NCBI GenBank assembly: GCA_004297775.1 | Contig: SCUE01000007.1 | Location: 248,001 to 312,000 of the forward strand | DNA length: 64,000 nt | Source of the DNA: Chloroflexota bacterium | GTDB taxonomy: Bacteria > Chloroflexota > UBA6077 > FW602-bin22 | Direction: 5' to 3' | Shown: one piece after another, positions 12,414-32,365 of the stretch | Layout: each line of letters begins with the position of its first letter | Position numbering within the stretch: position 1 is the stretch's first letter | The notes under the pieces: model-generated | What the model saw: the letters and a program-made list of their open reading frames with translations, nothing else | What the model was told of the DNA's origin: nothing | The model's database searches: none | Made by a program: the position numbers and the translations under genes

Positions 12414-13287
12414 AACCGGCGGCTTCGTTCGACCACTCGTCCTGTACGGCATTCTGATCGTGGCGTCGATCGCATTCATGATTCCATTCGTCTTCGCGGT
12501 TGGAACATCGCTGAAGCCGTTCCACCTGCTGCACGTATTTCCACCGCTCCTCCTTCCTCCGCTCGACGAGGCTCAATTCAGCAACTACTGGCGCATTTTC
12601 AACGTTCCGTATGTACCGTTCACGTCGTTTTATGTGAATACAGTCATCATCACCCTCGCGTCGATGCTTGGCGCAGTGCTCACCGGTACGGCGTCGGCCT
12701 ACGGGTTCGCGCGATTCCGATGGCCGGGGCGCGACTTCTTTTTCGGCGTCCTCCTGGCGACCCTCGTGCTGCCCGAGGAAGTCGTGATTATTCCGAAGTT
12801 CCTGATGTTTCACCTGATTCCGGATGCCCTCTTCGGCAAGACCTGGATCGACACGTGGTGGCCGCTGATCGTCCCGTCCTGGTTCGGGGGAGGCGCGTTC
12901 GCCGTGTTCCTACTCCGCCAGTTCTTCATGCAGATTCCGCGTGAATTGGACGAGGCCGCCGTCATCGATGGCGCGAACACGTGGGACATCTTCTGGAGCA
13001 TCATCATTCCGCTCTCGAAGCCGGCTCTGGCGACCGTCGCGATCTTCTCCTTCCTGGGCCACTGGAACGACTTCATTCACCCGCTCATTTACCTCAACTC
13101 GACCGAAATGTTCCCGCTTTCGGTCGGCTTGCGCTGGTTCCAGCAGCAGCCGACGGATCCGATCGAGCCACGCGAGAACCTGTTGATGGCTGCCTCGGTC
13201 CTGATGATTACGCCCGCGCTGCTCATCTTCTTCTCGATGCAGCGCTACTTCGTCCGCGGAATCGTCATGACTGGAATCAAGGGCTGA
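12403..13287 (+). CDS. Sugar ABC transporter permease (MalG/UgpE type)
   Basis: 294 aa, second permease of the heterodimer. Membrane helices throughout, the EAA loop D-E-A-A-V-I-D-G-A-N-T and the MalG-type end (Q-R-Y-F-V-R-G-I-V-M-T-G-I-K-G). A GGAG lies about 11 nt upstream of the ATG inside the preceding gene, so the two are translated together. Homologous in layout to 24072-24968. Confidence 0.92.
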   Translation: MTARTGGFVRPLVLYGILIVASIAFMIPFVFAVGTSLKPFHLLHVFPPLLLPPLDEAQFSNYWRIFNVPYVPFTSFYVNTVIITLASMLGAVLTGTASAYGFARFRWPGRDFFFGVLLATLVLPEEVVIIPKFLMFHLIPDALFGKTWIDTWWPLIVPSWFGGGAFAVFLLRQFFMQIPRELDEAAVIDGANTWDIFWSIIIPLSKPALATVAIFSFLGHWNDFIHPLIYLNSTEMFPLSVGLRWFQQQPTDPIEPRENLLMAASVLMITPALLIFFSMQRYFVRGIVMTGIKG

Positions 13288-13348: not shown

Positions 13349-14020
13349 ATGGCAATGATTTCGGAACGCGATCGGGAATACATCCGCCAGCATTTCGCCG
13401 AGAAGTTGACTGACGACGTCACCCTCGAGCTGTACACGCGACCCAAGCCACGCCTGCACGTCCCCGGTCGTGAGGCGTGCCTGTACTGCGCGGAGACGCG
13501 ACAACTCGTCGAGGAGGTCGCGGATCTTTCCGATCGCGTCAACGTGGTCGTTCACGACGTGCTGGAGGAACCGAACGCCCTGGCCGATGCCGGAATCAGC
13601 GAGATTCCAGCCCTGGTGTTCAAGGGCAAGAACAAGGGAACGGTCCGATATTTCGGGATACCGGCCGGCAACGAGTTCCGGAACCTGATCGACAATATCG
13701 TCGGTGTCGCCTCGGGCGAGAGCGGACTATCACTCGAGACCGAGGCCGCGCTGGCGACGCTCGCAAAGGATGTCCATCTACGCGTCTTCGTCACGCCCAC
13801 CTGACCCCACTGTCCAGGGGTGGCCAGTCTGGCCCACCGAATGGCGATCGCCAGCGAACGCGTCACGGCCGATGTCATTGAGGCGAACGAATTCGCCGAT
13901 CTATCGGATCGCTACGCCGTGCAAGGCGTGCCGAAGATTGTGATCAACGATCGGCGCCAGATCGTTGGCTCCCGACCCGAAGCTGCCTTTCTGGCGGAGG
14001 TCCTCGCGGCGGTCGAGTAG
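13349..14020 (+). CDS. Protein disulfide oxidoreductase with in-frame TGA, probable selenoprotein
   Basis: 223 residues if TGA 13802-13804 is read as selenocysteine (Sec152). Two thioredoxin folds, as in the PDO/glutaredoxin-like family: the N-terminal active site is C-L-Y-C (Cys44, Cys47); the second reads T-P-T-U-P-H-C-P, with U where homologues have the first Cys of C-P-Y/H-C. Sequence after the TGA continues the same frame and family (L-A-H-R-M-A-I-A-S, then G-V-P-K-I-V-I-N with the cis-Pro). A hairpin right after the TGA fits the bacterial SECIS pattern. Role: cytosolic thiol-disulfide exchange, perhaps reduced by TrxB (31430). The alternative is a pseudogene made by one Cys-to-TGA change, giving a 151-aa fragment. 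GGGG 13 nt before the ATG is the likely ribosome binding site. Confidence 0.75.
13805..13838 (+). promoter_or_regulatory. Candidate bacterial SECIS element
   Basis: Directly after the TGA codon. Stem GGTGGCCA (13819-13826) pairs with TGGCCCACC (13830-13838), 8 bp with a single bulged C; the apical loop is GTC, starting with G, 22 nt after the TGA. Known bacterial SECIS models ask for an upper stem of at least 4 bp, a G among the first two loop bases and the loop about 16-37 nt after the UGA. A CCCC/GGGG helix (13805-13808 with 13817-13820) competes for one side. Confidence 0.6.
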
Positions 14021-17673: not shown

Positions 17674-18867
17674 CTACCGGCTGGCGGAGCGCCCAGGCTG
17701 ACGCACGCGGTACAGAGCATCCGCGACGACGTGCGCGTCGGCGTCGCTCAACTCGCGAACGTCGATTCGCGCGGTCCACGGATCGAACCCCGGCATGATC
17801 GCGACCGGCGGATCCCCGGCCAGCAAGCGCGCGCAGAGATCCGCCGCGGTCACGCCCTCATCCCGATCGAGCGTGAGGTGGACAGTCGGAAACGCTCGGC
17901 CCAGATGATCGCGCGCGACGAACTCGACCTCGGCGTCGGGCAACGCGACTAGTTGATCGTGCAGCCAGACCGTGCGCCGTTCGGCCGCGCGCCCGGCGGC
18001 GCGATGATCGCGCGCGACCCAGTGCTCGATCGCCGCGACGAGGCCGATCATCTCTTCCTTGCTCACTTTGCAGACACGGCCGATGCCCTGGGTCGGCGAC
18101 GCTTGCGCGCGCGCCGCCGCGATGAGGTCGGCTCGGCCGGTCAGGAAACCCGATCCCTGGGGACCGCGCAGACCCTTTCCGCCGCTGAACGCGACGAGAT
18201 CGGCGCCCGCGTCGGTGAATCGATGCAGGTTCTCGGGCGGCGGCAGCGTATTCGACGCGTCGATCAGGATCGGCACGCCATGGCGCCGAGCCAGGCCGAT
18301 CACCTCCTCGGGCGACGGCGCATCCGGCGGATCGACGCCCATCCAGTAGATACCGACCGTCTCGGGAGTGATCGCCGCGTCGATGTCGTCGAGCGTCACG
18401 CCACTCGCGGTGCCAACCTCATCGAAGACGCCGCCGGCGCCACGCACCGCGTGCGCGTAGCCGTGATGGGTGAACTCTTCACCATCCGCGACACGCCGCT
18501 CCATCCGGCGAGCGACCCAGCGATGCTTCATCCCACGCGTATCCGGCAGCCGCGCCGATAGCACCGGATGTCCATTTGTCATGACCGCGGCCGCGCCGAC
18601 CATCAACCCGGCGGCGCATCCGGACACGATGTAGCTCGCCTGGCCGTGCGTGTGGTGCGAAATCCGATCCGACGCCGCGTCAAGCAACTGTCCGACATCG
18701 ACGTACGCGTCGACCGCCCGACGCATCGCGTCGGCGACCACCGGAAGGATCGATGCGCCCCCGAACCTGGTCCAGTGACACGTCGCGTTGATGACGCGAC
18801 GCACGCCAAGCGCGGCGTACACATCGATCTCATCCCCGAGCACGGTCGCCGGCGCCAGGAGTTCCAT
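17674..18867 (-). CDS. SelA-like PLP-dependent enzyme, not canonical SelA
   Basis: 397 aa, fold-type I PLP enzyme of the SelA/DgaE-related family (members include D-glucosaminate-6-phosphate ammonia-lyase-like enzymes). Starts with L-G-V-R-R-V-I-N-A-T; D203 in I-D-A-S-N; Lys231 in S-G-G-K-G-L-R-G-P-Q is the likely Schiff-base residue. It lacks the longer SelA N-terminal tRNA-binding domain, and canonical SelA is about 460 aa, so it is probably a metabolic lyase. GGAGGAAG precedes the ATG by 4 nt. The sigma factor gene follows after 23 nt. Confidence 0.75.
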   Translation of the reverse strand: MELLAPATVLGDEIDVYAALGVRRVINATCHWTRFGGASILPVVADAMRRAVDAYVDVGQLLDAASDRISHHTHGQASYIVSGCAAGLMVGAAAVMTNGHPVLSARLPDTRGMKHRWVARRMERRVADGEEFTHHGYAHAVRGAGGVFDEVGTASGVTLDDIDAAITPETVGIYWMGVDPPDAPSPEEVIGLARRHGVPILIDASNTLPPPENLHRFTDAGADLVAFSGGKGLRGPQGSGFLTGRADLIAAARAQASPTQGIGRVCKVSKEEMIGLVAAIEHWVARDHRAAGRAAERRTVWLHDQLVALPDAEVEFVARDHLGRAFPTVHLTLDRDEGVTAADLCARLLAGDPPVAIMPGFDPWTARIDVRELSDADAHVVADALYRVRQPGRSASR

Positions 18868-31437: not shown

Positions 31438-32365
31438 CGACAGCCGCAACATCATCATTCTTGGCTCGGGGCCGGCTGGCCTGACGGCCGCGATCTACGC
31501 GTCGCGGGCGGCATTGGAGCCGCTTGTCATCGCGGGCGCACAGTCCGGCGGCCAACTCATGCTGACCTCCGAGGTCGAGAACTACCCGGGCTTCCCGGAA
31601 GGCGTCGAAGGGCCGGAGCTGATGCGTCGGTTTCGCGAGCAGGCGGAGAAGTTCGGCGCCGAGTTCATCGACGACGACGCCGTTTCGGTCGATTTCCAGA
31701 AACGCCCGTTCGAAGTCACGACATCGGGCGGCACGCGCCGCGGCCAGGCGGTCATCATCGCGACCGGGGCATCGGCAATCTGGCTCGGTCTCGAATCGGA
31801 AACGCGTCTGCGCGGTCGAGGTGTTTCGAGTTGCGCCACCTGCGATGGATTCTTCTTCCGGGGCAAGGAACTGGTCGTCGTCGGAGGCGGCGACACCGCG
31901 ATGGAAGAGGCGACCTTCCTGACGCGCTTCGCGACCAAAGTCACGATCGTGCATCGCCGCGACGCGCTTCGCGCGTCGAAGATCATGCAGGATCGCGCGA
32001 TGAAGGATCCCAAGATCTCCTTCATCTGGGACAGCGAGATCGTCGAAGTCCTCGGCAAGGACAGCGTCGAGGGAGTGAAACTTCGTAATGTTCGCACCGG
32101 CGCACGGCGCGACTTCGACACTGGCGGTGTCTTCCTGGCGATCGGCTACCGGCCGAACACCGATTTCCTCACGGGCCAAATCGCCCTCAACGAGAAGGGG
32201 TACATCGTGCCACTTGCCGACACGGAGACGCAGACGAACATCCCCGGAGTCTTCGTGGCCGGTGACGTCGAGGACTTCCATTATCGTCAGGCCGTAACCG
32301 CGGCCGGCGCCGGTTGCAAAGCCGCGCTCGACGCCGAGCGGTATCTGGCGTCACTCGAAGACTAA
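31430..32365 (+). CDS. trxB: Thioredoxin reductase
   Basis: 311 aa, low-molecular-weight FAD/NADPH thioredoxin reductase. FAD site G-S-G-P-A-G (12-17), redox disulfide C135-A-T-C138, NADPH site V-V-G-G-G-D-T-A, and FAD-contacting V-F-V-A-G-D-V. It reduces thioredoxins and possibly the two-domain disulfide oxidoreductase/selenoprotein at 13349, since PDO-type proteins often pair with TrxB. AAGGA precedes the ATG. Confidence 0.95.
   Translation: MSNDSRNIIILGSGPAGLTAAIYASRAALEPLVIAGAQSGGQLMLTSEVENYPGFPEGVEGPELMRRFREQAEKFGAEFIDDDAVSVDFQKRPFEVTTSGGTRRGQAVIIATGASAIWLGLESETRLRGRGVSSCATCDGFFFRGKELVVVGGGDTAMEEATFLTRFATKVTIVHRRDALRASKIMQDRAMKDPKISFIWDSEIVEVLGKDSVEGVKLRNVRTGARRDFDTGGVFLAIGYRPNTDFLTGQIALNEKGYIVPLADTETQTNIPGVFVAGDVEDFHYRQAVTAAGAGCKAALDAERYLASLED

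Follow-up and report, generated by a model that had tools for sequence, protein, structure and literature searches.

A gene for a protein disulfide oxidoreductase (PDO) in the Chloroflexota DNA analyzed here (64,000 nt, hereafter the window) contains a single in-frame TGA at a position where an active-site cysteine is expected. The question raised by this locus is whether the codon ends the protein, marks a broken gene, or is translated as selenocysteine (Sec). With a probability of about 0.95, the gene is read here as a Sec-containing PDO of the TIGR02187 family: SelB and Sec-tRNA(Sec) would read the UGA at 13802-13804, aided by a hairpin, and yield a disulfide reductase of 223 aa. Sec insertion itself is what we infer from the comparisons described below.

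Gene structure and family membership

The reading frame extends from the ATG at 13349 to the TAG at 14018-14020 and encodes 223 aa if TGA is translated as U. The sole TGA inside the frame is located at 13802-13804 and corresponds to residue 152. The features of the gene are:

13349-14020, + strand: selenoprotein PDO gene with two predicted thioredoxin-fold domains (translation, TIGR02187, end-to-end match to 1j08/1a8l)
13478-13489, + strand: N-terminal redox motif C-L-Y-C, residues 44-47 (translation; intact in the window copy)
13802-13804, + strand: in-frame TGA, the Sec codon, residue 152 (same codon TGA in 31 distinct homologues)
13802-13813, + strand: C-terminal redox motif U-P-H-C, residues 152-155 (alignment to CPYC of the Pyrococcus-type PDO)

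The sequence around the TGA reads TPT-U-PHCP. A sequence-only reading of the window had placed the TGA at the first Cys of the second C-x-x-C motif and both sides of it in one two-thioredoxin-fold protein. Both statements are borne out by the 223-aa translation, which aligns end to end with PDO and in which residue 152 matches the first Cys of CPYC in the solved structures 1j08 and 1a8l. C155 is invariant across the homologue alignment. Translation with table 11 splits the frame into products of 151 aa (13349-13804) and 66 aa (GTG 13820-14020), the kind of split by standard gene callers that had been predicted.

The product matches the NCBIfam model TIGR02187, which carries the name PDO_seleno_TRX, with 238.8 bits (cut-off 185, residues 6-220). 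The full-length alignment with the structures and the presence of both PDO redox motifs, CLYC and UPHC, point to two thioredoxin folds. In this the protein resembles the Pyrococcus PDO (1a8l, 1j08) and the Sulfolobus SsPDO, whose two redox sites are found in matching places; these are, however, enzymes of archaeal thermophiles that carry Cys where the window PDO has Sec152. The N-terminal domain of AhpF (TIGR03140, TIGR03143) is a further tandem thioredoxin-fold relative, and here the window PDO reaches 60-86 bits. It is not an AhpF: with 60.3 bits against a cut-off of 502.9 in the AhpF comparison, it lies far below the AhpF cut-offs in general, has no flavin reductase part and keeps both motifs.

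A Sec PDO, which the earlier reading expected to be an unusual enzyme, has in fact been described before. TIGR02187 proteins with a UxxC motif are a listed predicted selenoprotein family, with ABB15282.1 of Carboxydothermus hydrogenoformans as an example (PMC1794560, PMC9312934, PMC13188914). The Carboxydothermus-type Sec PDO shares the NCBIfam family, the UxxC motif class and the bacterial Sec machinery with the window PDO. The difference seen is one of lineage, with a Chloroflexota-type host here and Carboxydothermus, Symbiobacterium and Asgard as the published named cases.

Conservation of the TGA codon and the Sec machinery

Among 80 related loci from named genomes, the Sec codon is TGA in 23, TGC or TGT in 56 and AGA in one. 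Together with the window, a relative from the same family and loci from the host's class, this gives a set of distinct copies with 31 TGA, 59 Cys and one Arg (AGA) codon. Cys at column 152 of homologues that lack Sec and TGA in related genomes, both named in advance as support for Sec, are thus represented by 59 and 31 copies, respectively. The TGA homologues reach down to about 41% identity and are found in Chloroflexota, Rokubacteria, Armatimonadetes and other groups. Decay in relatives was looked for as well, and none of the 31 TGA copies contains another internal stop. With TGA at this one codon in 31 distinct homologues, chance is excluded.

Purifying selection acts past the TGA. Compared with a 73%-identical relative from the same family, identity is 72% before and 77% after the TGA, third-position changes dominate on both sides, and the dN/dS ratios are 0.18 upstream and 0.10 downstream of the codon, both rough values as dS (1.2-1.4) is near saturation.

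Within the host's class, 14 genomes hold the gene in full length, and 13 have the TGA form; two of these 13 also hold a separate Cys copy (L113, L114), and tRNA-Sec is found in 12 of them. The only full-length copy of the remaining genome G064 (L108) has TGC, and tRNA-Sec was not detected there, a combination expected if Sec reverted to Cys and the machinery was lost. Among the genomes screened for both forms, tRNA-Sec is present in 21/24 with the TGA form versus 2/15 with the Cys form, and SelB exceeds its cut-off in 19/24 versus 1/15 (Fisher p about 1e-5 each, relatedness uncorrected). tRNA-Sec was not detected in three of the 24 TGA genomes (G009, G020, G022), nor in G046; these are probably incomplete MAGs, but they could be exceptions. 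The single AGA copy (L086, 148-783) belongs to a Rokubacterium in whose genome neither tRNA-Sec nor SelB over the cut-off was detected. It is possibly an inactivated copy or an error.

The host genome is a draft of 4.03 Mb in 38 contigs (96% complete, 7% contaminated). The search for selA, selB, selC and selD that the earlier reading had called for returned all four: a tRNA-Sec with UCA anticodon (74.4 bits), SelB (327.6 bits for its two pieces together, cut-off 242), SelA (553 bits) and SelD (394.1 bits). The contamination of the draft is a reservation here, although SelB and the PDO share one contig (C19). None of the conditions that the earlier reading had named as refuting Sec was encountered. 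The selD gene (C24:170823-171749, L015) has an in-frame TGA of its own in the motif GAGUACKLG and is itself a selenoprotein candidate. Inside the window, a SelA-like PLP-dependent protein (17674-18867, - strand) was rejected as SelA with 30.5 bits against a cut-off of 267.9; the true SelA is encoded elsewhere.

A former Cys PDO that a nonsense mutation has turned into a pseudogene, or that is cut short through an error in sequencing, would fit the splitting of the gene by standard ORF calling and the origin of the contigs from a draft assembly. This explanation was rejected as highly improbable on the conservation of the TGA in distant homologues free of other stops, and the low dN/dS past the codon and the complete Sec machinery argue against it as well. 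Equally improbable is the reading of UGA as another amino acid, whether by recoding of the whole genome or by a suppressor tRNA; besides the open frame, nothing speaks for it. TGA is an ordinary stop that ends 19 of the 42 ORFs of at least 300 aa in the window, and the gene upstream of the PDO gene also stops at TGA (13285-13287). The genome moreover has a dedicated tRNA-Sec, and TGA specifically replaces the catalytic Cys in the PDO, Prx, Prx-like and SelD genes; a recoded genome was rejected on the ordinary use of TGA and the dedicated tRNA.

Decoding of UGA as Sec is generally inefficient and selenium-dependent. This leaves slightly more room, still very little, for programmed termination, in which the 151-aa N-terminal domain with CLYC is the functional product and read-through with Sec is a minor, selenium-dependent event. 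The upstream ORF does hold a complete thioredoxin-fold domain with this motif. However, conservation is no lower downstream of the TGA than upstream of it, and the N-terminal CxxC is gone in 16 of the 31 Sec homologues, where a truncated product would be left with no redox pair. Translation of the whole frame with Sec at residue 152 is the preferred reading in what follows.

Candidate SECIS element

A potential bacterial SECIS element is located directly downstream of the UGA:

13819-13838, + strand: candidate bacterial SECIS hairpin (-11.6 kcal/mol fold; fixed-place stem in homologues)

The hairpin (GGCCA-GUC-UGGCC) has an inner stem formed by 13822-13826 and 13830-13834, an apical loop GUC at 13827-13829 and an outer extension GGU/ACC with one bulged C. 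The distance between UGA and loop is 22 nt. Stretches of 45-55 nt around or after the TGA showed no excess stability over shuffled sequences (z -0.41, +0.11), a competing fold being preferred, and no Rfam match at the gathering score was obtained in the window. The case for a SECIS therefore rests on comparative position. Shuffling of synonymous codons gave a mild signal (mean z -0.85 for Sec versus -0.06 for Cys copies), and a fixed-position stem test was used for this reason. A stem with apical G at the fixed place is present in 28 of the 31 TGA copies versus 9 of the 59 Cys copies, in a register picked after viewing the sequences. With a shift of one base the counts are 21/31 for Sec and 11/59 for Cys, and most other offsets give 0-3, with one at 14. 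In the putative revertant L108, four of the five inner pairs remain. The hairpin is a probable but not proven SECIS; codon constraint and shared ancestry are partial confounders of the positional evidence.

Proposed redox partners and evolution of the Sec form

The product is expected to be a cytoplasmic protein of 223 aa with two thioredoxin folds and Sec152-Pro-His-Cys155 in the C-terminal one, made by SelB-dependent decoding of the UGA with the hairpin just 3' of it as a probable aid. Sec152 would serve as attacking selenolate and Cys155 as resolving thiol in the reduction of substrate disulfides. Thioredoxin reductase, supplied with NADPH, would then probably reduce the resulting Se-S bond, either directly or via the N-terminal CLYC. 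In SsPDO, the C-terminal site has a fundamental role in thiol-transferase activity; thioredoxin reductase reduces PDO, and PDO regenerates Bcp peroxiredoxins (PMC7465337). Bcp/PrxQ-type peroxiredoxins may likewise be among the substrates of the window PDO. A gene for the likely electron donor lies in the window, not adjacent to the PDO gene:

31448-32347, + strand: thioredoxin reductase gene with CATC motif (C19:279448-280347; TIGR01292, 396 bits)

Sec at the attacking position of an SsPDO-type C-terminal site, together with thioredoxin reductase and Bcp peroxiredoxins in the same genome, points to a selenolate disulfide reductase in this chain. A comparison of neighboring genes revealed none that is conserved beside Sec PDOs across distant lineages.

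Two further selenoprotein candidates were observed in the host genome. A Bcp/PrxQ-type peroxiredoxin (C30:13240-13629, L119) carries an in-frame TGA where its peroxidatic Cys is expected (PKADTGGUTREA), and a Prx-like protein (C7:177193-177600, L122) has one in the UxxC motif ALWUPYCK. The host appears to pair a Sec PDO with Sec peroxiredoxins, so that successive reactions of a single peroxide-reducing chain may make use of selenium.

The Sec copies cluster in the phylogenetic tree. A tree constrained to keep all of them in one clade with the four embedded Cys or Arg rows fitted better than the one from a quick unconstrained search (AU p 0.805); a single origin of Sec with few reversions is accordingly not rejected, which is not proof of it. 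The members belong to Chloroflexota, Rokubacteria, Armatimonadetes, ANGP1 and Elusimicrobia, a spread that calls for either an ancient origin or horizontal transfer.

About half of the Sec copies (16 of 31, see above) lack the N-terminal CxxC, compared with only one of the 59 Cys copies, L084. The Sec copies concerned are L026, L028, L035, L037, L041, L043, L046, L050, L052, L053, L055, L057, L058, L074, L081 and L096; all keep UxxC, and their N-terminal motif has none or one Cys left. On the best tree, five changes of the motif are found, most of them on Sec branches. An independent-pair test of Sec against loss of the motif gave no significance, with too few events. A tentative scenario, which we consider somewhat less probable than its negation, is that Rokubacteria, Armatimonadetes and others lost the N-terminal CxxC after the gain of Sec. 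A two-site isomerase/oxidoreductase would thereby have become a one-site selenol reductase with the first fold as scaffold only, and the window copy would still show the two-site state that came before.

Catalogues of selenoproteins have included the Sec PDO family since the mid-2000s; the window locus adds a well-supported member to it, not a new kind of protein. Its identification puts right a gene that would be split or labeled as a pseudogene in standard annotation. The Sec PDO is the usual form in the host's class and recurs in Rokubacteria and Armatimonadetes. The many Sec copies that lack the N-terminal CxxC allow one-site and two-site PDOs to be compared in natural variants.
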